A DNA stretch of 64,000 nt. It comes from Jannaschia pohangensis (GTDB lineage: Bacteria; Pseudomonadota; Alphaproteobacteria; Rhodobacterales; Rhodobacteraceae). The notes under the pieces are model-generated. The model made no database searches. It had not been told where the DNA came from and was given only the letters and a program-made list of their open reading frames with translations. This document shows positions 10,620 through 26,267 of this stretch, one piece after another. Location of the stretch: positions 62,001 to 126,000 of the forward strand of contig NZ_FORA01000001.1 in assembly GCF_900113875.1 (NCBI RefSeq), given 5' to 3'. Position 1 is the stretch's first letter. Each line of letters opens with the position of its first letter. The position numbers were made by a program, and so were the translations under genes.

Positions 10620-11507
10620 TTACCCTGCGCGTTTGGCGCCGTGGGCCCCGTAGTAGAGGCCGACGACATGCTCGGCTTCGGCAAAGAAGAGCCAGCGCTG
10701 AACCAGCACACCCGCCAGATGGGAAAGGACAGCGACGATGGCGGGCATGTGGTGCGGCCCGAAGATCAGAAGGACTGCGACCGGGATCACGACCATCAGC
10801 GCCAGCGCGATGACCCGCAGCTTGGCCGCGTGTTTGCGCCCGATCTGATAGACCATCTCGTGGGTCAGATAGTTTTCACCAGTGTGGGGCTTTTCCCAGA
10901 GGCTGACGCGGCCCTGAAGGCGGGTCGCCGTCTCGATGGTGGAGCCGGCCTCGGCAAAACGCCGGTCGCCCTTGATCCAGTGCCAGGCCGTGATCGCCCC
11001 GAGAACGACCATCAGGATGAGGGCCGCATCGACATTGCCCGACAGGAGCGCGCCGCCCGCCAGCGAGGCGGCGAGGAAGAAGGCGGGGGTCGCAGGCTGG
11101 TTCCAGCGCGGGATCGTCTTGAGCTGCGCGTAGATCATCGATGTGGTGAAGACGGTGGCCAGCGACAGGATCGCGCCGATCCAGCCCAGGGGCGCGACGG
11201 TTGTGCCGAAGAACACCTGAAGCGCTGCATGGAGGCCCATGACCAGCAGGGCGGCGACGGCGCACCAGGCCTCGCGGCTGAGCCAGGAGGTGCGCCACTG
11301 GCTATACGATTTGACGGCGTTCTTCTTGTTTCCAAGGTGGAACAACGCCGACATGAGGCCGCCGACCGCCAGGGCGTAGGCGATCAGGTAGAAGACGAAG
11401 GCGACCCAGCCGGTGACGGTTGGAAAGCCGAAGCCCAGAAAGAACAGAAGGCCGAAGCCTGCACCCGACAGGGACGAGAAGATGATGACGGACGGGGCGG
11501 GATGCAT
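10620..11507 (-). CDS. soeC: SoeC, membrane anchor of sulfite dehydrogenase (DmsC/NrfD-like)
   Basis: 295 residues with about eight membrane helices, beginning MHPAPSVIIFSSLSGAGFGLLFFLG, in the DmsC anchor family. The start at 11507 overlaps the soeB stop by one base (TGATG). By analogy with SoeABC of Allochromatium and roseobacters, it holds the molybdoenzyme on the cytoplasmic face and passes electrons from sulfite oxidation to the quinone pool. It is the last gene of the run. The frame stays open upstream into soeB, but that part is a shadow. Confidence 0.88.
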   Translation of the reverse strand: MHPAPSVIIFSSLSGAGFGLLFFLGFGFPTVTGWVAFVFYLIAYALAVGGLMSALFHLGNKKNAVKSYSQWRTSWLSREAWCAVAALLVMGLHAALQVFFGTTVAPLGWIGAILSLATVFTTSMIYAQLKTIPRWNQPATPAFFLAASLAGGALLSGNVDAALILMVVLGAITAWHWIKGDRRFAEAGSTIETATRLQGRVSLWEKPHTGENYLTHEMVYQIGRKHAAKLRVIALALMVVIPVAVLLIFGPHHMPAIVAVLSHLAGVLVQRWLFFAEAEHVVGLYYGAHGAKRAG

Positions 11508-12265
11508 CAGAGTTTCTCCAGCGCGCGGTCGAGCCAGCCAAGGAAGCCTTTGGGGTCTTCGGCGACGGGAGCGAGGAAGGGGGCGAGGATGTCTTCGTCG
11601 CCGGTCATCACGTCCGCGATGGTGTCCCGGGGACGGGGGGGCAGATACTGGTTCACGGGTCGCGTGCCCTGTTCCGGCATGAGGTCGACGCCGCCCCTGT
11701 CGGCCACCAGAAGACTGACGGCAGAGGTCGGATCGCCCAGGTCGCCGAAGTGGCGCGCGCCCGCGGGACAGGTGCGCACGCAGGCCGGTTCGCGGTCTTC
11801 CTCGGGCAGGTTCTCGTTGTAGATGCGGTCGACGCAGAGGGTGCATTTCTTCATCACCCCCGCCGCCTGATCCATCTCGCGCGCGCCGTAGGGGCAGGCC
11901 CAGGCGCAGAGGCCGCAGCCCATGCAAGCGTCTTCATTTACAAGGACAATTCCGTCTTCCACGCGCTTGTAGCTGGCCCCGGTGGGGCAGACGGTGACGC
12001 AGGGGGCGTCGTCGCAGTGCAGGCAGGATTTCGGGAAATGAGTGGTGCGGGCGAGGCCGGTTTCGGGCTGGCTCTGAAAGCTGTGGATGCGGTTCAGGAA
12101 GGTGCCGGACGGCTTGCCGTAGGGGTCCTGATCGGACAGGGGCGCGCCGTAATTCTGGGTGTTCCAGCCCTTGCAGGCGGTGACGCAGGCATGACAGCCG
12201 ACGCAGGTGTCAAGGTCGATGACGAGGCCGAGCTTCTTGTCGGTATGGCTGGGCAGGGCGGTCAT
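11507..12265 (-). CDS. soeB: SoeB, iron-sulfur subunit of sulfite dehydrogenase
   Basis: 252 residues from the ATG at 12265, with AAAGGAG seven bases upstream. Four ferredoxin-like cysteine groups are visible: CVGCHACVTACK, CLHCDDAPCVTVCP, CMGCGLCAWACPYGA and CTLCVDRI with CVRTCPAGA. This is the four-cluster electron-transfer layout of DmsB-like subunits. There is no signal peptide, so it is cytoplasmic. Its ATG overlaps the stop of the 47-codon ORF (ATGA) and its stop overlaps the soeC start. Confidence 0.92.
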   Translation of the reverse strand: MTALPSHTDKKLGLVIDLDTCVGCHACVTACKGWNTQNYGAPLSDQDPYGKPSGTFLNRIHSFQSQPETGLARTTHFPKSCLHCDDAPCVTVCPTGASYKRVEDGIVLVNEDACMGCGLCAWACPYGAREMDQAAGVMKKCTLCVDRIYNENLPEEDREPACVRTCPAGARHFGDLGDPTSAVSLLVADRGGVDLMPEQGTRPVNQYLPPRPRDTIADVMTGDEDILAPFLAPVAEDPKGFLGWLDRALEKL

Positions 12266-12405
12266 GCACGGCTCCTTTCGGCGTCGGATTTCAGGTATGA
12301 TCCACGGGTGATCCACGGATGATCTACGTCTGACGTCACTGGGCGCACATTTGGCGCATCGATCAGCATGGTTTTGTGCGTTTTTGTGGCTTGGGGTGTG
12401 GTCAT
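12262..12405 (-). CDS. orf47: small cistron between soeA and soeB
   Basis: 47 codons from the ATG at 12405. GGAGGTGA, an essentially perfect ribosome site, lies within the last soeA codons, 8 bases upstream. The ATG shares a base with the soeA stop (TAATG) and the TGA overlaps the soeB ATG (ATGA), so it is coupled on both sides. The peptide begins MTTPQATKTHKTML, carries HPWITRGSYLKSD near the end and has no membrane segment or cysteine. I do not recognise a family. It could be a small subunit or maturation factor, or simply a coupling spacer. Confidence 0.6.
   Translation of the reverse strand: MTTPQATKTHKTMLIDAPNVRPVTSDVDHPWITRGSYLKSDAERSRA
12298..12330. repeat. Three tandem 11-bp units
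   Basis: TGATCCACGGG, TGATCCACGGA and the diverged TGATCTACGTC follow one another without gaps inside orf47. Because 11 is not a multiple of three, the units are read in different frames. They may be a small slippage expansion or a binding site. Confidence 0.6.
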
Positions 12406-15227
12406 TACTTCACCTCCCACGCCAGTTTGTCGGGACCGGTGCCGACGGGGGAGGACTGGCGGCCCGTGTTCGGTCTGGAGGTGCCATCGGCGGGGGCGGC
12501 GACTTTCTCGATCTTGACCTTGAGGTCGAACCACGCGGCCTGACCCGTGATCGGGTCGGAATTGGACCAGCGCATCCCGTCCTGTTTCGGGGGCAGCAGT
12601 TCGTGGATCAGGTGGTTCAGAAGGAAGCCCTCTTTCGCCTCGGGGGCGTTGTCGTGGAGCGCCCATGCGCCCTTGCGCTTGCCGATGGCGTTCCACGTCC
12701 AGATCGTGTTGCGGTTGAGCGCGGGCATATGCGCGACCGGTACGGTGATTTCGCCGTGGGGCGAGGTGATGCGCGCCCATGACCCTTCGTCGAAGCCGTG
12801 CTTTTCCCAGAGTTCAGTCGGGACATACATCGGGTTGCGCCCGTGGATCTGGCGCAGCCAGGCGTTTTGCGTGCCCCAGGAGTGATACATCGCCATGGGG
12901 CGCTGTGTGAGGGCGGTCACGGTAAATTCGCCCGCGTCCCCCCCATGGGCGGCGGCGGCATCCCACCAGATCGGCAGCGGGTCCATGGTCGCCTTGATCC
13001 GCTCGCGCAGGTGGTCGGGGGGCTGGCGTGGCCCATGGCCTTCGGCGGCCAGCTGGAAGCGGCGGAGCGGTTCGCACCAGAGGGTGAAGAGATAGGGCGA
13101 GGCCTTGTCGAAGAGGCCGATCTCGACCGCCCAGTCCTGATAGGCCTTGTTCCAGGGTTTGTAGAACTGCGCATCGTCCGGGATATGCGCGATCGCATAG
13201 CCGCCGTTGTCGATATAGGCCTGCATCTGCGTGGGGTTGGGCGCGCCACGCCCGGTCTGGTCGCCGTTTTCGCCGCGATAGCCCATCAGGGGGCCGACGC
13301 CGGGGCGGCGTTCGTGGCGGACGATGTAATCGGCGTAATCCTTGAACTTCGGACTGCCGTCGTCCTTGACGAAGCCCGGCAGGCCGAGGCGTGCGCCAAG
13401 GTCGATGAGGGCCGATTGGAAGCCTTTGACGTTGCGGTCGGGGTCCACCACCGGCCATCGGATGGCGTCGGCGGCGGCCTCCGCCTCGCAGATCGGGCGG
13501 TCGAGGAGCGAGATGCAGTCGTGACGCTCCAGATAGGTCGTGTCGGGCAGGATCAGGTCGGCGTAGGCCACCATCTCGGACGAATAGGCGTCGGAATAGA
13601 TGATGTGCGGGATGACGTAGTCGCCGTTGTCGTCCTTGTCGGACAGCATCTTCATGGTGCCCGACGTGTTCATCGACGAATTCCACGCCATGTTCGCCAT
13701 GTACATGAACAGCGTGTCGATCCTGTAGGGGTCGCCCGCGTGGGCATTGCTGATGACCATGTGCATCATGCCATGCGCCGACATCGGGTTTTCCCAGGTG
13801 AATGCCTTGTCGATGCGGGCGGGGGTGCCGTCGTCGCGCAGGGCGAGGTCGGCGGGGCCATGGACGAAGCCCAGATGCGGGCCATCCAGCGGCGCGCCGG
13901 GGGTGACCTTGCAGTGGGGTTTCGGATGCGCGGTCGCGGGCTTGGGGTAGGGCGGTTTGAAGCGGAAGCCGCCGGGGGTTTCCACGCTGCCGATGAGGAT
14001 CTGGAGCATGTGGAGCGCGCGGCAGGTCTGAAACCCGTTGGCATGGGCACTGATGCCCCGCATGGCGTGCATCGACACCGGGCGGCCCGTCATCGTCTTG
14101 TGGGTGCGGCCCCGGAAGTCGGTCCATTCCTGTTCGATCTCGATCGCCTCGTCAAAGGCGACGCGGGCGATTTCGGCGGCAAGGCCCCGGATGCGGCCCG
14201 CCGGGATGCCGGTCCGCTCGGCCACGGTGTCGGGGGCGTAGTCGGCGCTCAGGTACTTGTCGATCATGTGCTGGAACACGGTGCGATGGCGGATGCCTCC
14301 CACCTCCCAGACGCCGGCAAGGTCGGGGTTCACGTCTTCGGCGTCGAAACAGCGGGCGCGTTTCTGGGTCCGGTCCCAGACCAGCTTGTGCCCGTCGTCG
14401 TCCAGCAGGGCGAGGCCATGGGTGGCCGAATTCGGGTCGGCGTCGATCAGGACGGGGGCGTCGGTGAAGTCGCGCAGGTATTCGAGGTCGATCTTCCCCG
14501 CCTTCATGAGGCAATGGACGAGCGACAGGATCAGCAGGCCATCGGTGCCCGGCGTGATGCCGAACCAGTCGTCGGCCACGGCGTTGTAGCCCGAGCGGAT
14601 GGGGTTCACGCCGACGACCTTGGCGCCGTTCTTCTTGATCTTGCCGATCCCCATCTTGATCGGGTTGCTGTCGTGATCCTCGGCCACGCCGAAGAGGATG
14701 AAGAGCTTGGTGCGGTCCCAGTCGGGCTGGCCGAATTCCCAGAAGGCGCCGCCCATGGTGTAGATGCCGCCCGCCGCCATGTTGACCGAGCAGAAGCCGC
14801 CGTGGGCCGCGTAGTTCGGGGTGCCGAAGGCCTGCGCCCACCAGGAGGTGAAGGATTGGGATTGGTCGCGCCCGGTGAAGAAGGCGAGTTTCGAAGGGTC
14901 GGTTTCGCGGATCGGGCGCAGCCAGCCCTCGGCGATGGAATAGGCCTCGTCCCAGGAGATTTCCTCGAACTTGCCCTCGCCGCGCTCGCCCACGCGTTTC
15001 AGGGGCGCGCGCAGGCGGGAGGGGGCGTTGTGCTGCATGATGCCGGCGCTGCCTTTGGCGCAGAGGACGCCGCGATTGACGGGGTGGTCGCGGTTGCCCT
15101 CGATATAGGCGACCTTGCCGCCCTTCATGTGGACGTCGATGCCGCAGCGGCAGGCGCACATGTAGCAGGTCGTCTTGCGCACCTCGTCGGAGACCTTGGG
15201 CGACAGGTTCAGCTTGGGCTGGTTCAT
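12405..15227 (-). CDS. soeA: SoeA, molybdopterin subunit of cytoplasmic sulfite dehydrogenase
   Basis: 940 residues from the ATG at 15227; the frame is open further upstream but there it overlaps tauE. The N-terminal cluster TTCYMCACRCGIDV, then GVLCAKGSAG, binds a 4Fe-4S cluster. The rest is the DMSO-reductase-family molybdopterin fold, with the C-terminal domain around TALTQRPMAMYHSWGTQNAWLRQI. There is no Tat signal, which fits cytoplasmic SoeA rather than periplasmic reductases. The gene is coupled to tauE upstream (4-base overlap) and to orf47 downstream. The neighbourhood with xsc, pta and tauE makes oxidation of sulfite from taurine the likely role; on sequence alone it could be named a DmsA-like oxidoreductase. 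Confidence 0.88.
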   Translation of the reverse strand: MNQPKLNLSPKVSDEVRKTTCYMCACRCGIDVHMKGGKVAYIEGNRDHPVNRGVLCAKGSAGIMQHNAPSRLRAPLKRVGERGEGKFEEISWDEAYSIAEGWLRPIRETDPSKLAFFTGRDQSQSFTSWWAQAFGTPNYAAHGGFCSVNMAAGGIYTMGGAFWEFGQPDWDRTKLFILFGVAEDHDSNPIKMGIGKIKKNGAKVVGVNPIRSGYNAVADDWFGITPGTDGLLILSLVHCLMKAGKIDLEYLRDFTDAPVLIDADPNSATHGLALLDDDGHKLVWDRTQKRARCFDAEDVNPDLAGVWEVGGIRHRTVFQHMIDKYLSADYAPDTVAERTGIPAGRIRGLAAEIARVAFDEAIEIEQEWTDFRGRTHKTMTGRPVSMHAMRGISAHANGFQTCRALHMLQILIGSVETPGGFRFKPPYPKPATAHPKPHCKVTPGAPLDGPHLGFVHGPADLALRDDGTPARIDKAFTWENPMSAHGMMHMVISNAHAGDPYRIDTLFMYMANMAWNSSMNTSGTMKMLSDKDDNGDYVIPHIIYSDAYSSEMVAYADLILPDTTYLERHDCISLLDRPICEAEAAADAIRWPVVDPDRNVKGFQSALIDLGARLGLPGFVKDDGSPKFKDYADYIVRHERRPGVGPLMGYRGENGDQTGRGAPNPTQMQAYIDNGGYAIAHIPDDAQFYKPWNKAYQDWAVEIGLFDKASPYLFTLWCEPLRRFQLAAEGHGPRQPPDHLRERIKATMDPLPIWWDAAAAHGGDAGEFTVTALTQRPMAMYHSWGTQNAWLRQIHGRNPMYVPTELWEKHGFDEGSWARITSPHGEITVPVAHMPALNRNTIWTWNAIGKRKGAWALHDNAPEAKEGFLLNHLIHELLPPKQDGMRWSNSDPITGQAAWFDLKVKIEKVAAPADGTSRPNTGRQSSPVGTGPDKLAWEVK

Positions 15228-15982
15228 AGTGTCTCCAGTGCGAGGCGGACGAGGCTGGCGGCGGCGAGGCCGATCAGCAGGGTCAGGCAGAGCGGTTTGT
15301 AGTAGCGTTCGTACCTTGGCACAAAGAGGGCGCGTCCGGCAAAGACCCCGATCAGGGTGGGGACGATCAGGACAAGGCCACGGGTGGCCGCCGTGCCGGT
15401 CATGGTGCCGACGATCAGGTGGGTGGCAAGGCCGAGCGTGCCCGCCCCCAGAAGGTAGATGTTGAGCGTGCCGCGCATGGTGCGGGCGGGCAGCTGACGG
15501 GCAAGGGTGTAGAGCGCGATGAACATGCCGCCCGCGCCCGAAAGCCCGGTGATGAGGCCCGCGCCGAGGCCGGTCCCCCAGAGGCCGGGACGGGTGGCGA
15601 GTAACGGCAGTTTCAGGCGCGACAATTGCGCCAGCGCCAGGACGATCAGGACGGACAGGGCGACGGTCTTGGAGGTGGTTGCCGGGATCGCGAGGCTGAG
15701 GAGCAGGCCCGCAGGCAGACCGATGGCCGAGGTGATGCCGAGGGTCACGGCGATCGAGCGGTCGGCGTCTGCCCATCCGCCCTTCATCAAGAGGAGCGAG
15801 GAGGACATCTCGAGAAACCAGAACACCGGGATCAGCTGAATCGGCGGGATGACCGTGGCCAGCATCGCCATGGCCAGCGCCGAAAGGCCGAAGCCCGCGA
15901 AGCCCCGGATGGCACCGGCCAGAAAGCAGGCGGCGACGGCGAACCAGGCGACACCGGGGGACAGACCCAGCAGATCAGCCAT
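15224..15982 (-). CDS. tauE: TauE/SafE-family sulfite (sulfonate) exporter
   Basis: 252 residues with about eight membrane helices and the TSUP-family opening (FLAGAIRGFAGFGLSALAMAML) repeated in the second half as GLGAGLITGLSGAGGMFIALY. In Cupriavidus and roseobacters the taurine-linked member exports sulfite or sulfate formed by Xsc. It overlaps the end of pta by 8 bases and the start of soeA by 4, so it belongs to the xsc-pta-tauE-soeA transcript. Confidence 0.88.
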   Translation of the reverse strand: MADLLGLSPGVAWFAVAACFLAGAIRGFAGFGLSALAMAMLATVIPPIQLIPVFWFLEMSSSLLLMKGGWADADRSIAVTLGITSAIGLPAGLLLSLAIPATTSKTVALSVLIVLALAQLSRLKLPLLATRPGLWGTGLGAGLITGLSGAGGMFIALYTLARQLPARTMRGTLNIYLLGAGTLGLATHLIVGTMTGTAATRGLVLIVPTLIGVFAGRALFVPRYERYYKPLCLTLLIGLAAASLVRLALETL

Positions 15983-16952
15983 GGGCCGCGTCGATCTGGG
16001 CCGAGGTCACGGCGATCATGTCGAGGATGTCGTCGGCGGTGCAACCCCGCGACAGGTCGTTGGCGGGCTGTGCCAGCCCTTGCAGGACCGGACCGATGGC
16101 GGTGGCCCCGCCGATGCGCTGCGCGATCTTGTAGCCGATGTTGCCCGCGTCGAGATCGGGGAAGATGAGCACGTTTGCCTGCCCCGCGACCGCGCTGCCC
16201 GGAGCCTTGGAGGCACCCACGCCCGCGTCGAAGGCGGCGTCGAACTGAAGCTCTCCGTCCAAGGCGAAGTCTGCCGTCGCGCGTGCGATTTCAACGGCTT
16301 CGATGACCTTGTTCACACGCATGTGGTGCGCGCTGCCCTTGGTGGAGAAGGACAGCATGGCGACCTTCGGGTCCACCCCCAGAAGCGCGCGGGCCGAGGC
16401 GGCGGATTGGTGGGCGATTGCCGCCAGCTCTTCGGGCGACGGGTCGATGACCAGTCCGCAGTCCGAAAAGATCAGCCCCGCACCCGGGCGGGTCGGGTGG
16501 CTTTCGGGCAGGACCATCAGAAAGAAGCTGGAGACGAGGGGCGCACCCTCGGCCATGCCGACGATCTGGAGCGCGGCGCGCACGGTGTCGGACGTGGTGT
16601 GGATGGCCCCGCCGATGGTGCCCCCGGCCAGCCCCTCGCGCACCATCAGCGCGGCCCAGACGAGCGGGTCGCCGATGGCCTCGACCGCCTGAACGGGGGT
16701 CGGTTTGCGTCGGGCGCGGGCGGCGAGGAACGCCTCGGCCATGGCGTTGCGGCGCGGGCTGGTCTTCGGGTCCTCAAGGGTGACGCCGGGGGGCACGGGC
16801 GTGCCTTCGGGGGCCAGCAGGGTAATGCGCGCCAGACCCTCCGCGACGGCGCGGCCCGCAGCATCCCGAACCCGGGGGTCGGTGCCTTCGGGCAGCACGA
16901 TGTGGTGCCGGGCCACGCGGGCCCGGTCCCGAAGGGTCAGGAGCGGCGACAT
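15975..16952 (-). CDS. pta: Phosphate acetyltransferase
   Basis: 325 residues from the ATG at 16952; an in-frame GTG lies one codon earlier. It is the short single-domain Pta (PTA_PTB family), with HIVLPEGTDPRVRDAAGRA at the start and FSTKGSAHH, QFDAAFDAGVGASKAPGS and NVLIFPDLDAGNIGYKIAQR later. It converts acetyl phosphate made by Xsc to acetyl-CoA. It lies 31 bases after xsc on the same strand, the arrangement known from alphaproteobacterial taurine degraders. Confidence 0.94.
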   Translation of the reverse strand: MSPLLTLRDRARVARHHIVLPEGTDPRVRDAAGRAVAEGLARITLLAPEGTPVPPGVTLEDPKTSPRRNAMAEAFLAARARRKPTPVQAVEAIGDPLVWAALMVREGLAGGTIGGAIHTTSDTVRAALQIVGMAEGAPLVSSFFLMVLPESHPTRPGAGLIFSDCGLVIDPSPEELAAIAHQSAASARALLGVDPKVAMLSFSTKGSAHHMRVNKVIEAVEIARATADFALDGELQFDAAFDAGVGASKAPGSAVAGQANVLIFPDLDAGNIGYKIAQRIGGATAIGPVLQGLAQPANDLSRGCTADDILDMIAVTSAQIDAAHG

Positions 16953-16983
16953 CACGCCGACCCTTTTGTTGTGCGATTACAGG

Positions 16984-18762
16984 TCACTCTGCGGCGACGT
17001 GCATGTCGTCCTTGGACACGCCCGCCACCCGAACCGGCTTTTTCATCGCATCGCGGCGGAAGGGTTCGCCCAGTTCCTGATTGAGCATCACCTCGATCAG
17101 GGTGGTCTTGTTGTCCTTCATCTGCGCCTTGATCGCGCCGTTGAGCGCGGCCGTCAGCTCGTCCATCGTCCTGACCGCGACGCCCTGAAGGCCGCAGGCC
17201 TTGGCGATGCCCGCATAGGACACCTGGGTGTCGAGTTCGGTGCCCACGAAGTTGTCGTCGAACCAGAGCGTGGAGTTCCGTTTTTCGGCGCCCCACTGGT
17301 AGTTGCGGAAGACGATCTGGGTGATCGCGGGCCAGTCGCCGCGTCCGATGGCCGTCAGCTCGTTGACCGCGATGCCGAAGGCGCCGTCGCCCGCGAACCC
17401 GACCACCGGCACATCCGGGCGGCCGATCTTGGCGCCGACAATCGACGGCAGGCCATAGCCGCAGGGGCCAAACAGGCCGGGGGCCAGGTATTTGCGCCCC
17501 TCGTCGAAGTCCGGATAGGCGTTGCCGATGGCGCAGTTGTTGCCGATGTCCGACGAGATGATCGCCTCGCGCGGGAGGGCGGCCTGGATCGCGCGCCAGG
17601 CCATGCGCGGGCTCATCCAGTCGGGCTTGGCGGCGCGGGCGCGCTCGTTCCAGGTGGTGCCGGGGTCATCCTGTTCGTGGTCAAGCGACGACAGCTCCTG
17701 CGCCCAGGCGGATTTGGTCTGGGCAATCTTGGCCTTGCGCTCCGCTCGGCCCGCGTCGCCCGCCGTGTCGGACAGACCCTTGAGGATGCCCTTGGCGACC
17801 TTGGCCGCGTCGCCGACGATGCCCACGGTGATCTTCTTGGTCAGGCCGATCCGGTCGGGGTTGATGTCGACCTGGATGATCTTTGCGTCCTTGGGCCAGT
17901 AATCCATGCCGTAGCCGGGCAGGGTCGAGAAGGGGTTGAGCCGCGTGCCGAGGCAGAGCACCACGTCCGCCTCGGAGATGAGCTGCATCCCCGCCTTGGA
18001 CCCGTTGTAGCCGAGTGGCCCGGCAAAGAGCGGATGCGACCCCGGAAAGGCGTCGTTGTGCTGATAGCCGACGCAGACGGCGGCATCGAGCTTTTCGGCC
18101 AGCGCCATGGAGGCGGCGATACCGCCCTGCGACAGGACCACACCGGCCCCGTTCAGGATGACGGGGTTCTTGGCCGACGACAGCAGTTCGGCGGCCTTGG
18201 CGACCGAGTTTTCACCGCCCGGCGAAACCTCGAATTCGATGGGGTCGGGGATTTCGATATCGACGACCTGGGTCCAGAAGTCGCGCGGCACGTTGATCTG
18301 GGTCGGGCCCGACAGGCGATGCGCCTTGGCGATGACGCGGGTCAGAACCTCGGCGATGCGGGTGGGGTCGCGCACCTCTTCCTGGTAGGCCACGCAGTCG
18401 GCGAAAAGGTTCATCTGCTCCATCTCCTGGAATCCGCCCTGACCGATGGTCTTGTTGGCGGCCTGCGGCGTGACCAGCAAAAGGGGCGTGTGGTTCCAGT
18501 AGGCGGTTTTCACGGCGGTGACGAAATTGGTGATGCCGGGGCCGTTCTGGGCGATCATCATCGACATCTCGCCGGTCGCACGGGTGTATCCGTCGGCCAT
18601 CATGCCTGCGCTGCCTTCGTGGGCACAGTCCCAGAACTTGATCCCGGCGGTCGGGAAGATGTCGGAAATCGGCATCATGGCCGACCCGATGATCCCGAAC
18701 GCATGGCGAATGCCGTGGCGTTGCAGGGTTTTGACGAAGGCTTCTTCGGTCGTCATCTTCAT
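16984..18762 (-). CDS. xsc: Sulfoacetaldehyde acetyltransferase
   Basis: 592 residues from the ATG at 18762, with GGGAGGA seven bases upstream; an in-frame ATG two codons later is an alternative. It is a thiamine-diphosphate enzyme: the N-terminal pyrimidine domain has MTTEEAFVKTLQRHGIRHAFGIIGSAMMPISDIF, and the cofactor motif is GDGAFGIAVNELTAIGRGDWPAITQIVFRNYQWG. Length and motifs match Xsc, which splits sulfoacetaldehyde with phosphate into sulfite and acetyl phosphate. It heads the run xsc-pta-tauE-soeA-orf47-soeB-soeC. A pair of CTGG-type direct repeats lies 94 bases upstream. Confidence 0.96.
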   Translation of the reverse strand: MKMTTEEAFVKTLQRHGIRHAFGIIGSAMMPISDIFPTAGIKFWDCAHEGSAGMMADGYTRATGEMSMMIAQNGPGITNFVTAVKTAYWNHTPLLLVTPQAANKTIGQGGFQEMEQMNLFADCVAYQEEVRDPTRIAEVLTRVIAKAHRLSGPTQINVPRDFWTQVVDIEIPDPIEFEVSPGGENSVAKAAELLSSAKNPVILNGAGVVLSQGGIAASMALAEKLDAAVCVGYQHNDAFPGSHPLFAGPLGYNGSKAGMQLISEADVVLCLGTRLNPFSTLPGYGMDYWPKDAKIIQVDINPDRIGLTKKITVGIVGDAAKVAKGILKGLSDTAGDAGRAERKAKIAQTKSAWAQELSSLDHEQDDPGTTWNERARAAKPDWMSPRMAWRAIQAALPREAIISSDIGNNCAIGNAYPDFDEGRKYLAPGLFGPCGYGLPSIVGAKIGRPDVPVVGFAGDGAFGIAVNELTAIGRGDWPAITQIVFRNYQWGAEKRNSTLWFDDNFVGTELDTQVSYAGIAKACGLQGVAVRTMDELTAALNGAIKAQMKDNKTTLIEVMLNQELGEPFRRDAMKKPVRVAGVSKDDMHVAAE

Positions 18763-18855
18763 GGCTGGGTCCTCCCGGGGGTGTTCGAAAATGAGACCCT
18801 TGGTCTCGATTTGATGTCGTCTTGCCGCAAGGATACGGCGCTGGTCAAGTCTTCT

Positions 18856-18888
18856 ATAGGGCCAGTCCGGCGTCTGCCTTAGCGCCAG
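18856..18888 (-). promoter_or_regulatory. Proposed TauR operator upstream of xsc
   Basis: On the minus strand CTGGCGCTAA (18888-18879) and CTGGCCCTAT (18865-18856) form a direct repeat with a 23-base period. The nearer half is 94 bases from the xsc ATG. The same arrangement and distance occur before tpa. From memory, the Rhodobacter capsulatus TauR site is also a direct repeat of CTGGAC-type elements. The binding is inferred. Confidence 0.6.
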
Positions 18889-18904
18889 CCGGGAGCGCCG
18901 GAAA

Positions 18905-20380
18905 TCAGGCCGTGCCGCGGCGGAGTGCCTCACCTTCCTCGGCGATGCGGCGGATGCCTTCGGGGATGTCGGGCACCCCGATGGAGGAATAGGCGAGGCG
19001 GTAGTGAGTGCCGGGATCGCGCCCCTCGCCGAAGAACGGCCCGGCCGGTTCGATGAGGACCTGCCGCTGACGCAGTCTTTCGGCCAGATCGGCGGCCCGC
19101 ACCCCCTCGGGCGCGCGCATCCAGAGGGAGGAGCCGCCGAAATTGGGCGCGCCGGCGATTTCGAGGCCGTTGGCGGCGATGGCGGCCTCGGCCACGGCGC
19201 GGCGGTCGCGGTAGGCGCGGGCCATCTTGTGGACCTGCGCGTCGTAATGCCCCTGGGCCAGGAAATAGGCGGCGACCCTTTGGATGTGGCCGGGCACATG
19301 GCGCACCACCAGCGACCGCAGCATCCGCATCTCGCGGATCAAGGGTTCCGGGGCGACCACATAGCCGAGGCGCAGGCCAGGGAAGAGCGATTTGGCGAAG
19401 CTGCCGATGTAGGCCACGCGCCCCGCCCGGTCGAGCGATTTGAGCGCAGGCGAGGGGGTGGAGGCGAAGGCCAGCTCGAACTCGTAATCGTCCTCCACGA
19501 TCAGGAAATCATGCTCTTCGGCCCGGTCGAGCAGTGCCCGCCTGCGGGCCATGGGCATCGTGGCCGAGGTCGGGCAATGGTGGGAGGGCGTGACGAAGAG
19601 GACGTCGGTTTCGGGCGGCACCGCGTCCGGCGGCAGCCCGTGTTCGTCGACGGCGATATCGGCGGTGTTGCAGCGCGATTGTTGCAGGATTTCACGCAGC
19701 GCCGGGTAGCAGGGAAATTCCATCACCGCCGTGCGGCGCTGCGTCAGCAGGATCTGCGCCAGCATCCAGAGCGCGTTCTGTGCGCCGAGCGTCACAAGCA
19801 CTTCGGACGGGTCGGCGACGATGCCACGTCGGGGCAGGATGTGGCGGATGATCTGATCGACGAGCTGCGGGTCGTCGCGGCCATAGCTGTCTTCGGTGAG
19901 GGCCTGGAAGTCGCGCGCGCCGAGGGCCTGCAAGGCACATTTGCGCCAGTTCTGGTGGTCGAAGAGCCGCGCGTCGGTCTGGCCGTAGATGAACGGATAG
20001 CGATAGCGTCGCCAGTCTTCGGGCCGGTTCAGGGCCGCCGCCTCGGGGATGCGCTGGCCCAGGGCGCGCGACCAGTCGACCCGGCTTTCCGAACGTGTCG
20101 AAGGCGGGAAGACGGGGGGACGCGGCGCGGAGTCTGAGACGAAATAGCCCGACCGCCCGCGCGACGACAGATAGTCGTTCGCCACCAGTTCGGTATAGGC
20201 CAGCGTCACTGTGATCCGGCTGATCCCCAGATGTCGCGCCAGGCCACGCGACGACGGCATCCGGTCGCCCTGATGAAATCGGCCCGCCAGAATCCCGCTG
20301 GCGACGATCTCCTGCAATTGACGTTGCAAGGTGCCCTGGTGCCCGGGGTCCAGGAAGAATTGCTCGACGGGGATGGCCAT
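18905..20380 (-). CDS. tauR: TauR, MocR-type GntR/aminotransferase regulator of taurine genes
   Basis: 491 residues. The N-terminus IPVEQFFLDPGHQGTLQRQLQEIVASGILAGRF is the GntR winged helix typical of MocR proteins, and residues 110-490 form a fold type I aminotransferase-like domain with PLP-site features (SHHCPTSATMP, FAKSLFPGLRLGYV, the latter holding the putative Schiff-base Lys). TauR activates tpa and xsc in the presence of taurine in R. capsulatus. Here it lies directly upstream of xsc on the same strand, with its own proposed operator at its start. The first ATG is chosen because the family N-terminus begins there. Confidence 0.92.
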   Translation of the reverse strand: MAIPVEQFFLDPGHQGTLQRQLQEIVASGILAGRFHQGDRMPSSRGLARHLGISRITVTLAYTELVANDYLSSRGRSGYFVSDSAPRPPVFPPSTRSESRVDWSRALGQRIPEAAALNRPEDWRRYRYPFIYGQTDARLFDHQNWRKCALQALGARDFQALTEDSYGRDDPQLVDQIIRHILPRRGIVADPSEVLVTLGAQNALWMLAQILLTQRRTAVMEFPCYPALREILQQSRCNTADIAVDEHGLPPDAVPPETDVLFVTPSHHCPTSATMPMARRRALLDRAEEHDFLIVEDDYEFELAFASTPSPALKSLDRAGRVAYIGSFAKSLFPGLRLGYVVAPEPLIREMRMLRSLVVRHVPGHIQRVAAYFLAQGHYDAQVHKMARAYRDRRAVAEAAIAANGLEIAGAPNFGGSSLWMRAPEGVRAADLAERLRQRQVLIEPAGPFFGEGRDPGTHYRLAYSSIGVPDIPEGIRRIAEEGEALRRGTA

Positions 20381-20382
20381 GA

Positions 20383-20414
20383 TTGGACCTATAGAGGAGG
20401 CCGCCTGGACTTAA
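20383..20414 (+). promoter_or_regulatory. Proposed TauR operator at the tauR start
   Basis: TTGGACCTAT (20383) and CTGGACTTAA (20405) form a direct repeat with a 22-base period, ending 2 bases from the tauR ATG. Here the elements point away from tauR, unlike the xsc and tpa sites, and they cover its ribosome-site region. This would suit autorepression. The pair also overlaps the 3' end of the small membrane ORF. Confidence 0.5.
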
Positions 20415-20637
20415 CAGGTTCATGTCCCATCCGCGCCAGAAGGAACAGCGTGCCGAACGGCGCGAGGAACACGCTGAGGTGCCCCCAGACCAGCGTCAGG
20501 GCCAGCGGTCCGATGGCATTGAGCGGTTCGGCAAGGCCCGACAGGTCGATCAGGCAGGTCGCACAGAGCGCGAATGTCGACAGGCAGATGCCGATCGCCA
20601 GACTGTCCAGCATGAGGCCGATGATGCGATGTCCCAT
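20389..20637 (-). CDS. Small two-helix membrane protein, unknown
   Basis: 82 residues starting MGHRIIGLMLDSLAIGICLS. Two hydrophobic stretches (about residues 7-30 and 40-68) and a charged tail (MGHEPVKSRRPPL) suggest a small inner-membrane protein. I recognise no family. It sits 8 bases upstream of tauR on the same strand and could be cotranscribed with it, although the proposed TauR site lies in its 3' end. It faces the next gene divergently. The hydrophobic pattern supports coding, but the ribosome site is not strong. Confidence 0.5.
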   Translation of the reverse strand: MGHRIIGLMLDSLAIGICLSTFALCATCLIDLSGLAEPLNAIGPLALTLVWGHLSVFLAPFGTLFLLARMGHEPVKSRRPPL

Positions 20638-20833
20638 ACCAGAAGCCTAGGCCGCCGGACGGCATCATGGCAAGCACGGCCTGCGCGGGAGGCGCCGCAT
20701 GGCCAGACCGCCCAAGCGCTTGCCCGTGTCGGCCAGGCCACGTCGCGGAAAAATAACGAATGTTGCCTTGGATTGCGCCCATTTCCGCAAGACAGAGACG
20801 CCACTTTTCTAATGACACCCCAAGGACGAATTC

Positions 20834-21682
20834 ATGAACTTCCGCACATTTCTCGGCTGGACCGGGGCCATTGCCTTCACGGCCTATTATCTGTGGTCCT
20901 GGTGGACCGGAACCGGCTTGCACGCCTTTTTGACCGTCAAGATGGCCGAAATCTTCGGGTCGGCCGATGATCGTTTGCTGTTGTTCGTGCCCCTCATCTT
21001 CGGGAATGTCGTCATCCTGTGGCTTGGCGGGATCAAGGGCGGCCCCGCCGATGCGCCCAAGTTGACCCCGCTTCAGCAGGCGGACCTGAATGTCCGCGTC
21101 TCGTCGAGGGTGATCTTCGCCGGGGCCGTCGTGGTGGCCGGGGGCGTGGGCGCCTATTTCTATGCGCAAGGATTGCCCGACGGGACGGAAGACCCGATCG
21201 CGATGAGCATCGCGTCCTTGCCGGACCCGATCCCGGTCGGACAGAAAGTGATCCTGAAAGGTGAGCGGCCAGACGGCTTTGGCGCGATTATCGTGGAAGA
21301 GGGGCGCGGGTCGACCAAAGAGACCTTCTATGTCCCTGTCGTGCCGTTTGGCGTCGATCCCAGAACGGTCGAAGTCGCCTTTTTCCATGTCGTCACGCTG
21401 CAGGGCGAGAACAACAATCCCAATTTCAGGATGTTCGAGGAGCCAGGATATCTGCGCCGCACCACGCTGGAGCCTCTGGCCCGCAATCTGATGGAAGAGC
21501 AGGGTGTCGCGGTCGCGAGTTCGGTCTATTTCGTGCAATCATCTGGTCAGGGACCGAAGGGCGATTGGACCGTCGGCAGCTTCATCGCGATGGGCGTCGG
21601 CGGGCTCCTGTTCATCATCGGTCTGATCAACACGCTTCTCGCGATGGCGCGCCGTCGCAAGGTGCGCCGCGCCGAACTCTGA
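20834..21682 (+). CDS. Membrane protein of unknown function (DUF3592-like layout)
   Basis: 282 residues. Hydrophobic segments lie at about 5-25, 50-66, 90-112 and 248-270, with an extracytoplasmic part between the last two (about residues 113-245, GTEDPIAMSIASLPDPIPVGQKVILKGE onward). The overall shape resembles DUF3592 proteins but I cannot confirm the family. The C-terminus ends in a basic tail (MARRRKVRRAEL). AAGGACGAATTC precedes the ATG. A strong terminator follows, so it is probably a single-gene transcript. It is one of three genes that separate tauR from tpa. Confidence 0.75.
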   Translation: MNFRTFLGWTGAIAFTAYYLWSWWTGTGLHAFLTVKMAEIFGSADDRLLLFVPLIFGNVVILWLGGIKGGPADAPKLTPLQQADLNVRVSSRVIFAGAVVVAGGVGAYFYAQGLPDGTEDPIAMSIASLPDPIPVGQKVILKGERPDGFGAIIVEEGRGSTKETFYVPVVPFGVDPRTVEVAFFHVVTLQGENNNPNFRMFEEPGYLRRTTLEPLARNLMEEQGVAVASSVYFVQSSGQGPKGDWTVGSFIAMGVGGLLFIIGLINTLLAMARRRKVRRAEL

Positions 21683-21703
21683 TCCCATTACCAGGACGCA
21701 ATG

Positions 21704-21735
21704 CGCCCCCGGGATGGTGACTCCCGGGGGCGTTT
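21704..21735 (+). terminator. Rho-independent terminator
   Basis: An 11-bp perfect stem, CGCCCCCGGGA (21704-21714) with TCCCGGGGGCG (21722-21732), and a 7-base loop are followed by TTT. It ends the membrane-protein gene at 20834-21682. Confidence 0.85.
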
Positions 21736-21736
21736 C

Positions 21737-22095
21737 CGTGGGCCAATTCCTTGGTCGTGCGGGTGAGGGAAGCGAGTGCCGGTTCGCGCCTGCTGCAATA
21801 AGCATGACGTTCGCTTTTACGAAGGTCCGCCATGCGCCGGAGCACACAAGAAATGTCGGCCATTTCTGCAAGGCGACTTGATTCCGATATGACGCCGTTT
21901 GATTTTTGGTGAAAATTGATGTAACTTTTAAATCCTGGGCGTCCCAGAGCCGACCCTGTTCTATGCTGAGGTTTTTCTGCTTCAGCGGGTCTTGTTTCTG
22001 TTCGCTTTGATCTTGCACGCCAGTATTTTCAGGCGTGTGGAATAGTGTTTTTCAATTGGTTATTGGTGCGACCGAATTTTATTTGGAGATTAGAC
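21737..22095. other. Intergenic stretch, locally AT-rich
   Basis: About 360 bases without a supported gene. From about 21875 to 22095 the sequence is clearly richer in A/T than its surroundings (for example GATTTTTGGTGAAAATTGATG and TTTTCAATTGGTTATTGG). It ends in TGGAGATTAGAC, the ribosome site of the next gene. A frame on the minus strand covering most of it has no protein-like character. Confidence 0.6.
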
Positions 22096-22431
22096 ATGCA
22101 AGAGATTCTGAAGAGATTGGGGGCCAAGAAGGGCTCAAAGGAGTCAATCAAGGACACGAAGGGCATTGCGCAGTTTGCGTTGGCGCCGAAAATTCCTGAA
22201 AGCCAGTTGGCGGAATACGAGGAACAGGCGCAGCAGGCGCAATCGGCAGGCGATCAGGTTCCGGTCATCGTGGACGGCATTCCCATGTTCATGTTCCGCG
22301 GCGTGGTCCAAGGTCTGGTCAGGATCGGGGCTTTTATCGTTGTTTGGCCCGGTACTGAAATTCACGTCGGATACGGCGAATCCGAGAATGGTTATCCGCC
22401 GGACTGGATTGGGCCGTATATCCCCAAGTAA
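22096..22431 (+). CDS. Hypothetical protein, 111 aa
   Basis: Begins MQEILKRLGAKKGSKESIKD from the ATG at 22096, with GGAGA eight bases upstream; a start at 22045 is open but would encode an atypical AT-rich leader. The N-terminal 60 residues are charged and Gln/Ala-rich (LAEYEEQAQQAQSAGDQVP). The rest is hydrophobic and glycine-rich (IVDGIPMFMFRGVVQGLVRIGAFIVVWPGTEIHVGYGESENGYPP). No family is recognised. Its lower-GC upstream region and terminator-bounded position suggest an independent, perhaps acquired, gene. Confidence 0.6.
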   Translation: MQEILKRLGAKKGSKESIKDTKGIAQFALAPKIPESQLAEYEEQAQQAQSAGDQVPVIVDGIPMFMFRGVVQGLVRIGAFIVVWPGTEIHVGYGESENGYPPDWIGPYIPK

Positions 22432-22488
22432 AAACCGGCCGGAAGCTGCTGGTGGCACCTTCGGCTGTGTTGCAGAACTTCTGTCGGC

Positions 22489-22522
22489 GACGCCCCACCC
22501 TGTACGGGTGAGGCGTCTGTTT
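22489..22522 (+). terminator. Probable terminator between the 111-aa gene and tpa
   Basis: GACGCCcCACCC (22489-22500) pairs with GGGTGaGGCGTC (22506-22517) and is followed by TGTTTCTT. The stem is strong with one internal mismatch. The T-run is on the plus strand, so it mainly serves the 111-aa gene; the stem may also slow transcription coming from tpa. Confidence 0.65.
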
Positions 22523-22523
22523 C

Positions 22524-23909
22524 TTACCCGAACACACGGGTCAGCGCCTTGTCGACCGCATCGGCGATCTGGTTCAGGTCGTCCTTCGTCGAGATGAGCG
22601 CGGGGCTGAAGCACAGGGTGTTGTTGTAGCCCGGAACCGACCGGTTGGTGGCCCCGATGATGACGCCCTGCTGCATGCAGTCGGCGACGACGGCCTGCAC
22701 CTTCTTTTCGTCGGCGGGTTCCTTGGTGGTGCGGTCCGCGACCAGTTCGGCCCCGAGGAACAGGCCTTTGCCGCGCACATGGCCGATGACCGCGTGCTTT
22801 TCCTGAAGTGCCGCCAGCTGGTCGAGCATGTATTCGCCCATCCGGGTGGTGTTTTCCAGAAGGCCCTCGTCCTCGATGATCTTGATGTTGGCCAGTGCCG
22901 CCGCAGGACCCGAAGTGCAGCCGCCGAAAGTCGAGATGTCGCGGAAGAAGTGCAGGGGATCGGTGGGATCGTCCTTGAACATCTCGAACACGCGCTCGGA
23001 GGTGACGCAGCAGGAAATGGCCGCGTAGCCCGAGGCGACGCCCTTGGCCATGGTGACGAAATCGGGCTTCACGCCGTAGTGCTGATATCCGAACCAGGTG
23101 CCGGTGCGGCCCACGCCACAGACGACTTCGTCGATGTGCAGCAGGATGTCGTACTTGGTGCAGATTTCCTGCACCCGTTCCCAATAGCCCTTGGGCGGCA
23201 CGATGACGCCGCCGCCCGCAGTCACCGGTTCGAGGCAGAGCGCGCCGATGGTATCGGGGCCTTCGCGCAGAATGACCTCCTCGATGGCGTCGGCGGCGCG
23301 GACGCCGTAGTCGTCGCCCGCCAGCCCCTGTTCGTGCGCGCGGTATTCAAGGCAATGCGGCACGGCGACGAAGCCGGGGGTGAAGGGGCCGTATTGCGCG
23401 TTGCGCTGCTCCTGCCCGCCGGCAGACAGACAGGCGATGGTGGTGCCGTGATAGTCGCGGTGACGATAGAGGATCTTGTACTTCTTGCCCCCATGATGGC
23501 GCGCCGAGATCTGGCGGACCATCTTGAAGGCCTTCTCGTTCGCCTCGGACCCGGAGTTGGCATAGTAGACCCGCGTCAGCCCCGGCATCTTGGAGATCAG
23601 CTTCTCGGCGAATTGCGATCCGGGGATGGAGCCTGCGGTCTGGGCAAAATAGTTCATCTTGACCAGTTGCGCGTGAACCGCATCGGCGATTTCGACCCGA
23701 CCATAGCCGACGTTGACCGTCCAGACGCCGCCGGACACGCCGTCGAGGTGTTCCTTGCCGTTCTGATCCCAGACCCGCATCCCCTTGCCCTCGACGATGA
23801 TCCGGGGGTCGGTGGTTTCGAACTGCTTGTGGGGCAGAAGGTGATGCCAGATGTGGGCGCGGTCGGCTTCGACGATGGCCGACAGATCGTTGGGGTTCAG
23901 GTTGTCCAT
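22524..23909 (-). CDS. tpa: Taurine:pyruvate aminotransferase
   Basis: 461 residues, a class III PLP aminotransferase. NSGSEANEKAFKMVRQ, the HIDEVVCGVGRTGTWFG segment with the PLP-contacting Asp, and FVTMAKGVASGY with the Schiff-base Lys are present. The opening LSAIVEADRAHIWHHLLPHKQFETTDPRIIVEGKG is typical of Tpa. It moves the amino group of taurine to pyruvate, giving sulfoacetaldehyde and alanine. GGAGGA precedes the ATG. It is divergent from tauBC, with a proposed TauR operator in the shared intergenic region. Confidence 0.94.
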   Translation of the reverse strand: MDNLNPNDLSAIVEADRAHIWHHLLPHKQFETTDPRIIVEGKGMRVWDQNGKEHLDGVSGGVWTVNVGYGRVEIADAVHAQLVKMNYFAQTAGSIPGSQFAEKLISKMPGLTRVYYANSGSEANEKAFKMVRQISARHHGGKKYKILYRHRDYHGTTIACLSAGGQEQRNAQYGPFTPGFVAVPHCLEYRAHEQGLAGDDYGVRAADAIEEVILREGPDTIGALCLEPVTAGGGVIVPPKGYWERVQEICTKYDILLHIDEVVCGVGRTGTWFGYQHYGVKPDFVTMAKGVASGYAAISCCVTSERVFEMFKDDPTDPLHFFRDISTFGGCTSGPAAALANIKIIEDEGLLENTTRMGEYMLDQLAALQEKHAVIGHVRGKGLFLGAELVADRTTKEPADEKKVQAVVADCMQQGVIIGATNRSVPGYNNTLCFSPALISTKDDLNQIADAVDKALTRVFG

Positions 23910-23998
23910 GAATTCATATCCTCCCGGATGGGGCGCCGGCCCGCACGGGCCACTGTGTGGAATCCTGATATCACAAGCGCAGGAAAAGCGAGCATTCG

Positions 23999-24031
23999 AT
24001 AGGGCCAGTGCGAATGCGGCATTATGTCCAG
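23999..24031 (-). promoter_or_regulatory. Proposed TauR operator between tpa and tauB
   Basis: On the minus strand CTGGACATAA (24031-24022) and CTGGCCCTAT (24008-23999) form a direct repeat with a 23-base period, identical in layout to the xsc site. The nearer half is 90 bases from the tpa ATG and the far edge 172 bases from the tauB ATG. One site could serve both promoters. Confidence 0.65.
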
Positions 24032-24167
24032 AGTCGCAGGCAGGTTGTCATATCGGCGCGCCGCCTTCTACGGTGGGGCCACTGCGCGGGGCCGGAACGG
24101 GTCGCGCGGTATCGCATGCGACCGTCAGATGTCGTGGCGAGCGGGCCTTCAACGGGGAGATGGCACC

Positions 24168-24206
24168 ATGACAAGGACGAACAACCAATCGGGGGCGTGC
24201 CGATGA
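24168..24206 (+). CDS. 12-codon ORF coupled to tauB
   Basis: ATG at 24168 encodes MTRTNNQSGACR and stops at 24204-24206, overlapping the tauB ATG (ATGA). GGGGAGA lies 8 bases before its start, whereas tauB itself has no good ribosome site. It occupies the position where tauA would normally be. It may be a leader peptide that allows tauB translation by coupling, or the fused remnant of a deleted tauA. Confidence 0.45.
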   Translation: MTRTNNQSGACR

Positions 24207-25006
24207 CGGGTCTGTCGATCGAGAATATCTCGATGCGCTTCGATCTGCCAAATGGCAGTTTCGTGCAGGCGCTGAAGAACGTGACGCTCCGGCTCGAACC
24301 CGGCGAGCTGTTGTCGGTTCTGGGGCCGTCGGGCTGTGGCAAGACGACCCTTTTGAACATCGTGGCGGGCTTTCTGGCGCCGACCGAAGGGCAGATCGTG
24401 CTGAACGACAATCGCGTGTCGGGCCCCTCGGCCGAACGGGGCATGGTGTTCCAGCAGGGCGCGCTGTTCGAATGGATGTCGGTGCGCCAGAACGTGGAGT
24501 TTGGCCCCCGGATGAAGGGCGTCCGCATGGGCGAACGGCGCGAGAAGGCCGATCACCTGCTGGACATCACGGGGCTCGGCGATTTCAAGGACAAGGCCAT
24601 CTATGAATTGTCGGGCGGGATGCAGCAGCGCGTGGCCCTGGCCCGTTGCCTGGCCAACGACCCCGACGTCATCCTGATGGACGAACCTCTGGGGGCGCTC
24701 GACGCGTTGACGCGCGAGAAGATGCAGGGGCTGGTCCTCAAGCTCTGGAAAGAGACAGGCAAGACCGTCATCCTGATCACCCATTCGGTCGAGGAGGCGT
24801 TGCTTCTGGGCGAGCGTCTGTTGGTGATGGCGCCGCGTCCGGGGCGCATCCACCGCGAATACCGCCTGCCGTTCGCCGAGATGGGCGTCGGCGCGGACCT
24901 GCGGGAGGTGAAACGCCACCCCGATTTCAGCAAGACCCGTGATGAAATCCTCTCCATGATCTGGGAAATGGAAGAGGAAATCATGGGCCGGACGGAGAGC
25001 GCGTGA
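24203..25006 (+). CDS. tauB: TauB, ABC transporter ATPase for taurine
   Basis: 267 residues from the ATG at 24203. Walker A GPSGCGKTT, Q-loop FQQGALFEWMSVRQNV, signature LSGGMQQRVALARCLA and Walker B VILMDEPLGALD are all present. It belongs to the nitrate/sulfonate/taurine subfamily. It pairs with the permease TauC one base downstream. An in-frame extension to 24008 exists but includes the operator region and has no family similarity. Confidence 0.92.
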   Translation: MTGLSIENISMRFDLPNGSFVQALKNVTLRLEPGELLSVLGPSGCGKTTLLNIVAGFLAPTEGQIVLNDNRVSGPSAERGMVFQQGALFEWMSVRQNVEFGPRMKGVRMGERREKADHLLDITGLGDFKDKAIYELSGGMQQRVALARCLANDPDVILMDEPLGALDALTREKMQGLVLKLWKETGKTVILITHSVEEALLLGERLLVMAPRPGRIHREYRLPFAEMGVGADLREVKRHPDFSKTRDEILSMIWEMEEEIMGRTESA

Positions 25007-25007
25007 C

Positions 25008-26267
25008 ATGACCGGCTTCATCCTTCTGGCGCTCTATGTGGCGCTGTTCGTGGGCGCGATGCTGTTGGTCGGGGCGCTGACCAAGGGGCGGGCGCGCAAC
25101 GATTTCACCTCGCTCAAGACGGTCACCTTCGGGGACGAGAGCGCGGTGCGCCCGAACCGTTGGGCCTCGGTCATCTCCGTCGTGGTGATCTTTCAGCTGT
25201 GGGGGGCCTTCACAGGGTCGGTCATCGCGCCGTTCCACGTGCCCGGCCCGTTCCTGGGCGACAGTAGCTTTACCTATACGGCCGAAAACGCCAGCGGTCA
25301 GACCGACGAGGGCGAGGTGTTCTTCCGCGTCCACGGCTTTGGCGAAACGGTCGAGGCTCCGGTCATCGAACCGGGTGACGGGTTCGCCAAGAACGACGTG
25401 ACCACCATCACGGCCTATCGGTCGGAATTGTTGCGCGTCACCGAAAACGACGGCGACGATACGCGGGTGACGCAGGTCAACGGCCAGGCCATCGCGCCGG
25501 GCGAAAGCGTCGACGTGGGCGACGCCACCGTCACCATGAGCCGACGCGGATCGCTGAGCGTGACGCCGAACCAGGGTTTGCAGATGGAGAGCATCTGGCT
25601 GCCCGCCCCCGAAGAGGTGATGGCGTCCTTCATCGAGATCGCGACCGACGGTTATCAGAACTTCACGCTGGCCGAGCATCTGGGCTGGTCGCTGATCCGG
25701 GTTCTCGCGGGTTTTGCCCTGGGCGCCATGGTGGGCATCCCGCTTGGCTATGCCATGGGTCTGTCGGGCTGGTTCCGGGGCTGGTTCGACCCCATCGTCG
25801 AATTCATGCGCCCGGTTCCACCGCTGGCGCTGATCCCGCTGGTCATCATCTGGTTCGGCATCTGGGAAAGCGGCAAGATCGTCCTGCTGTTCCTCGCTGC
25901 CCTCTGGATCATGGCGATCGCGGCGCGGGCCGGCGTGTCGGGCGTGAACATCACCAAGGTTCACGCGGCCTATTCGCTCGGCGCATCCAAGGCACAGATC
26001 CTGTTCCATGTGATCGTGCCGAATTCCCTGCCCGAGATCTTTACCGGCGCACGGGTCGCCATGGGGGTCTGTTGGGGCACGGTCGTGGCGTCGGAACTTG
26101 TCGCCGCACAAAAGGGCATCGGCATGATGATCATCGCGGCCTCCAAGTTCCAGCAGACCTATATCGTGCTCATGGGGATCATCCTGATCGGGATCGTGGG
26201 CTACGGCATGGATATCCTGATGCGGAAAGCCGAGAACTGGCTGGTGCCCTGGAAGGGGCGGAGCTGA
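25008..26267 (+). CDS. tauC: TauC, ABC permease with N-terminal extracytoplasmic insert
   Basis: 419 residues, much longer than E. coli TauC (about 275). Residues 1-27 and about 48-70 are membrane segments. About 75-205 form a soluble, beta-rich stretch (SSFTYTAENASGQTDEGEVFFRVHGFG, DVTTITAYRSELLRV, VNGQAIAPGESVDVGDATVTM) probably on the outer face. About 220-419 is the usual permease with the EAA loop (HAAYSLGASKAQILFHVIVPNSLPEIFTG). A UUCG terminator follows. The insert may be a roseobacter feature of TauC. Confidence 0.9.
   Translation: MTGFILLALYVALFVGAMLLVGALTKGRARNDFTSLKTVTFGDESAVRPNRWASVISVVVIFQLWGAFTGSVIAPFHVPGPFLGDSSFTYTAENASGQTDEGEVFFRVHGFGETVEAPVIEPGDGFAKNDVTTITAYRSELLRVTENDGDDTRVTQVNGQAIAPGESVDVGDATVTMSRRGSLSVTPNQGLQMESIWLPAPEEVMASFIEIATDGYQNFTLAEHLGWSLIRVLAGFALGAMVGIPLGYAMGLSGWFRGWFDPIVEFMRPVPPLALIPLVIIWFGIWESGKIVLLFLAALWIMAIAARAGVSGVNITKVHAAYSLGASKAQILFHVIVPNSLPEIFTGARVAMGVCWGTVVASELVAAQKGIGMMIIAASKFQQTYIVLMGIILIGIVGYGMDILMRKAENWLVPWKGRS

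Follow-up and report, generated by a model that had tools for sequence, protein, structure and literature searches.

Regulators of the MocR type that activate their targets while repressing their own gene are known, with GabR and PdxR as precedents for autorepression, and the head-to-tail arrangement of the MocR dimer fits direct repeats lying about two helical turns apart (Suvorova & Rodionov, 2016; PMC5320631). For the taurine regulator TauR, the main text of the same paper gives the direct-repeat consensus CTGGACYTAA, citing Wiethaus et al. (2008), whose work on TauR of R. capsulatus is cited there as having established activation at the tpa operator. The TauR regulons compiled by Suvorova and Rodionov include xsc, tpa, pta, and tauE, and the distances between repeats may differ slightly within the group (PMC5320631). 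A rule of orientation or period that separates activated sites from those of tauR was not found described in the main text of that paper (PMC5320631), and a paper on S. meliloti contained nothing about sites. In this study, we describe a tau locus of the marine bacterium Jannaschia pohangensis in which three such repeat pairs very probably are TauR operators that would turn on taurine breakdown and turn TauR itself down, as judged from the DNA and from its conservation among relatives.

Results

The taurine locus and its regulator

The window, that is, the whole stretch of 64,000 nucleotides that was analysed, is part of contig 6, and the genome measures 3.73 Mb. Going down in coordinates, the plus-strand genes tauC and tauB come first, followed by tpa, a pair of small ORFs on the plus strand, the genes tauR, xsc, pta, and tauE, and finally three genes of a molybdopterin oxidoreductase (Table 1). 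These last three (positions 10620–15227) resemble the sulfite dehydrogenase SoeABC, an identity that would make sense because Xsc releases sulfite. They correspond to the bisC/hybA/dmsC members reported for TauR regulons of the Rhodobacterales, for which the 2016 regulon paper raises a possible function as electron acceptors for TauXY (PMC5320631); sulfite oxidation after Xsc seems a simpler role for the SoeABC-like genes than that of TauXY electron acceptor. The two ORFs between tpa and tauR (20834–21682, 282 aa; 22096–22431, 111 aa) are unmatched both in Pfam and NCBIfam and in the relatives' tau loci. The TauC protein is extended at its N-terminus by about 190 residues, in which a bacterial Ig-like model is weakly matched, and is found at full length in relatives with 57–77% identity.

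Table 1. Positions in the window of the genes, probable operators, and predicted promoter elements of the taurine locus
Feature	Positions	Strand	Evidence and remarks
Membrane anchor, SoeC-like	10620..11927	minus	PF04976 DmsC; true start probably near 11500
Iron-sulfur subunit, SoeB-like	11507..12316	minus	DmsB/NrfC-type matches
Molybdopterin oxidoreductase, probably sulfite dehydrogenase subunit SoeA (bisC in the 2016 regulon paper)	12405..15227	minus	profile matches
tauE-type sulfite exporter	15224..15982	minus	PF01925
pta, phosphate acetyltransferase	15975..16955	minus	NF007233, 342.9 bits, cut-off 310
xsc, sulfoacetaldehyde acetyltransferase	16984..18762	minus	TIGR03457 equivalog, 912.7 bits, cut-off 676.4
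Predicted xsc -10, TATCCT (18835-18830), and predicted transcription start (about 18822-18823)	18822..18835	minus	inferred; columns conserved in 91 relatives
Probable xsc TauR operator, CTGGCGCTAA-N13-CTGGCCCTAT	18888..18856	minus	period 23, points at xsc; sequence read and matrix scan
tauR, MocR-type regulator	18905..20380	minus	domain and profile matches, structure alignment, homologues
Probable tauR TauR operator, TTGGACCTAT-N12-CTGGACTTAA	20383..20414	plus	period 22, opposite to tauR; sequence read and scan
Predicted tauR core promoter, TGTTAA-17-TATAGG	20388..20416	minus	within the tauR operator; inferred by analogy with 56 relatives
tpa-type aminotransferase	22524..23909	minus	NF005812, 473 bits, just below cut-off 488; Tpa name from context
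Probable tpa TauR operator, CTGGACATAA-N13-CTGGCCCTAT	24031..23999	minus	period 23, points at tpa; sequence read and matrix scan
tauB, taurine ABC transporter ATPase	24203..25006	plus	best match NF008421, under its cut-off; divergent from tpa
tauC, permease with long N-terminal extension	25008..26267	plus	best match NF007545, residues 194-418

The TauR protein joins an N-terminal winged-helix GntR domain (PF00392, residues 20–81) to a C-terminal type I aminotransferase domain (PF00155, residues 144–448), and its closest solved structure is GabR. In the alignment with GabR (4n0b), GSFAKSLFPGLRLGY of TauR pairs with GTFSKSLLPGLRISY, and the aligned K in GSFAKSLFPGLRLGY, which we take to be the PLP lysine, is kept. 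The TauR proteins of Jannaschia helgolandensis, J. donghaensis, and J. rubra come closest, with 81–84% identity, and tauR is linked to tpa and xsc in the window as well as in relatives. Automatic annotation would probably misname this protein (18905–20380) as PdxR.

Three repeat pairs of two kinds

A preliminary description had placed direct repeats before xsc and tpa, with a period of 23, and at the tauR start, with a period of 22; both direct reading and a scan found all three at their places and with these periods. The xsc and tpa sites lie 93 and 89 bases from the respective ATG codons (18762 and 23909), and the 94 and 90 bases given before differ in counting convention alone. The third site lies 2 bases from the tauR ATG (20380, minus strand). 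This repeat pair reads on the plus strand and tauR on the minus strand, so that the pair faces away from tauR, a reversal that was absent from the earlier account. The CTGGAC-type repeats which that account had named for R. capsulatus TauR agree with what we found, in that the motif in the window matches the published consensus CTGGACYTAA.

The agreement with this consensus also bears on the identity of the regulator. The NCBIfam PdxR equivalog model (NF052282) takes the protein at 353.1 bits, above its cut-off of 320, as would be expected if the regulator were PdxR and its sites answered to PLP or vitamin B6 and not to taurine. Against this, taurine genes flank the regulator in relatives, the sites fit the TauR consensus, and no vitamin B6 gene occurs among the neighbours examined. 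We consider a PdxR extremely unlikely, and read the match as over-broad naming with which gene context and sites disagree.

By their match to the motif, the three sites stand out from the rest of the window and of the genome. With a half-site matrix that was seeded with the published consensus and trained exclusively on the relatives' xsc and tpa promoters, they score 27.4, 30.3, and 28.8, the next-best pair in the window (periods 20–25) scores 7.7, and the best scores in 60 simulated windows of the same make-up (first-order Markov) average 8.3 with a maximum of 16.4. Across the 3.73-Mb genome, a relaxed two-box consensus with zero mismatches occurs twice with period 23 and once with period 22. 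These three exact matches are the xsc, tpa, and tauR sites, all in one locus, and the xsc and tpa sites are the only ones with period 23. Other matches with one mismatch were no more frequent in the genome than those of the reversed-pattern control.

Conservation of the sites and of their geometry

The comparison covered 116 relatives with distinct tauR genes, which gave 91 xsc and 73 tpa promoters to compare; the relatives are mostly from one family, so that the counts are not independent events. The best pair is directed at the gene and has a period of 22 or 23 in 164 of 164 xsc and tpa promoters, and thus the conservation of the half-sites in orthologous promoters, on which the preliminary description had made its proposal depend, holds throughout. 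Period 23 was found in 150 and period 22 in 13 of 163 such sites, and the proximal half-site, CTGGCCCTAW, is near-invariant. Among the Jannaschia loci checked, the xsc site is present in 6/6 and the tpa site in all five that have tpa in reach.

A reversed site upstream of tauR is present in 104 of the 116 relatives, even though tauR sites were outside the training of the matrix. Of 102 strong cases, 85 have this site with a period of 22 and 15 with a period of 23, and the contrast with the xsc and tpa sites gives a Fisher p of about 1e-38, which is not a real probability because the genomes are related. Within single genomes, the combination of period 23 at xsc with period 22 at tauR occurs in 65 and the opposite one in one. 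A reversed pair near a tauR-like gene is also seen, weakly, in a few more distant alphaproteobacterial homologues (e.g., L178, L185, L193).

The distance from the tauR site to the ATG is bimodal in relatives, with 34 sites at 0–4 bases, 60 at 12–17, and seven between. The main distances, 2–4 and 12–15 bases, are separated by a step of about 11 bases, near one helical turn, and at least eight changes between these two positions are required on the TauR protein tree (a quick tree with weak forks).

The direction of the tauR-proximal site can be understood in another way. It faces the plus strand, as would be expected from an activating site of a plus-strand gene, and the locus has been rearranged, tauA being gone and two plus-strand ORFs added; in this reading TauR would still activate xsc and tpa, and the third site would serve a plus-strand promoter to ORF 20834–21682 or be the relic of a rearranged promoter. 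However, that ORF starts about 420 bases off and is unmatched in the tau loci of relatives, the period of 22 instead of 23 marks the tauR site off, and the relatives with a reversed site near the tauR start include 25 of the 33 in which tpa lies directly upstream and co-directional. Such a promoter or relic is very unlikely, and we regard the reversed pair as the probable operator of tauR itself.

The reversed site is present in 79 of 83 relatives in which tauR is apart from tpa and in 25 of 33 in which the two are adjacent (Fisher p = 0.004). The idea that feedback changes cleanly from positive to negative once tauR is separated from tpa was considered and dropped, the site being common in both arrangements.

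Predicted promoters and leaders

In the 56 relatives with the site 12–15 bases from the tauR ATG, the conserved columns outside the half-sites are TTGC, 17 bases, and TANNCT, and the ATG comes 6–7 bases past TANNCT, which looks like a promoter of the sigma-70 type whose mRNA would be leaderless. One half-site is placed just upstream of the -35, and the second falls within the spacer. By analogy, the tauR transcript of the window would start at or beside its ATG, with the predicted core promoter within the operator (Table 1); in this class, with the site 2–4 bases from the ATG, the predicted hexamers fall within the half-sites, so that conservation cannot verify them. Matches of at least four bases to the SD sequence precede tpa in 99%, xsc in 90%, and tauR in 30% of cases, as compared with 12% at random positions. 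In the 12–15-base tauR class a 4-base match is found in 13%, equal to random positions (12%), and in the 2–4-base class 56% have a 4-base SD-like match, which is partly created by the half-site itself. Most relatives have the reversed site over a predicted core promoter, and their tauR mRNA is apparently leaderless.

The reversed site might be self-activating or neutral in sign, for instance if it acted, by read-through or looping, on the promoter that lies upstream of tpa, and the reversed site is missing in 8 of the 33 relatives with tauR just downstream of tpa; there, positive feedback is plausible because co-transcription of tauR with tpa is plausible. But in the 56 relatives the site overlaps the predicted core promoter, where it would block polymerase and not recruit it, and in the window two plus-strand ORFs part tauR from tpa. 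We hold self-activation or neutrality to be highly unlikely, and the reading as autorepression is strengthened because the conserved reversed site covers the predicted tauR core promoter.

In the xsc promoters of relatives, TANNNT at 21–26 bases and an A at 33–34 bases past the proximal half-site are both conserved. From the -10 and transcription start predicted on this basis (Table 1), the xsc operator would extend from about -66 to -34, abutting the predicted -35, in a class II-like position. No sharp -10 was seen by column conservation in the tpa promoters of relatives.

The displaced tauA gene

The tauA gene is absent between tauB and tpa (window 23910–24202), where it is present in 52/52 relatives with tauB. 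An orthologue with 71% identity stands alone on contig 15 (483970–484932; L172:7970–8932); neither tauB nor tauC was found near it, and there is no TauR operator beside it, the best score within 18 kb being 9.5 and not adjoining tauA. Because the orthologue is on another contig and has no TauR operator nearby, the gene for the binding protein may have left the TauR regulon. In relatives, 47 of 51 gaps between tpa and tauA (e.g., those of L085, L086, and L089) contain a tpa-directed operator only, and the sites for this reason give no obvious sign that TauR controls the divergent tauABC; a tauA-directed operator, sought in the same 51 gaps, was seen in one case only, alongside a tpa-directed one.

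Discussion

The probable TauR regulon that had been proposed for this locus is supported by the match to the published consensus, the MocR-type protein, the targets xsc and tpa, and the conserved promoter sites. We infer TauR binding, the sign of the regulation, taurine as the signal, the transcription starts, and the operon from sequence, and with high confidence we favour an explanation in which TauR activates xsc and tpa from the period-23 sites and represses tauR from the reversed period-22 site. A TauR dimer would occupy the xsc and the tpa operator, whose two direct half-sites are 23 bases apart and directed at the gene, and would assist RNA polymerase in the presence of taurine, in a class II-like activation. 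At xsc, the proximal half-site would stand against the -35 region, and the co-directional unit xsc-pta-tauE-soeABC would be driven from this site. At tauR, the reversed pair, with its half-sites 22 bases apart, over the predicted core promoter of the apparently leaderless transcript would let TauR shut its own promoter by occlusion.

On this reading, a Jannaschia-like genome would have a TauR regulon of exactly three operators, with one switch joining taurine uptake, the use of taurine carbon, and probably sulfite oxidation. It seems that the layout may be governed by a geometric code, to which we give slightly better than even chances. A gene-directed pair of period 23 beside the -35 would activate, and a reversed pair of period 22 over the leaderless tauR promoter would repress, the repressing operator having been shifted repeatedly by about one helical turn relative to the tauR start while keeping to one face of the helix. 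The contrast between the activating sites and the regulator's own site would then be a simple rule by which a head-to-tail MocR dimer activates one promoter and represses another, and with such a rule genome annotation could predict, given nothing but the sequence, whether a site activates or represses.

The system itself is a known TauR regulon, and a strict, conserved placement rule was not found described in the main text of the 2016 paper (PMC5320631). As far as that text describes them, R. capsulatus TauR and the 2016 regulons share with the window the type of regulator, the CTGGACYTAA motif, and the targets tpa, xsc, pta, tauE, and bisC/hybA/dmsC-type genes; in contrast to them, the xsc gene of the window has its own operator and tauR has its own reversed 22-base operator. 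GabR of Bacillus subtilis is likewise a MocR regulator that activates its targets and represses its own gene, but the activating and repressing sites of the window are separate and differ in geometry. The MocR architecture is common to the PdxR family and to TauR of the window; unlike in PdxR, the gene context and the sites of the regulator described here belong to the use of taurine.
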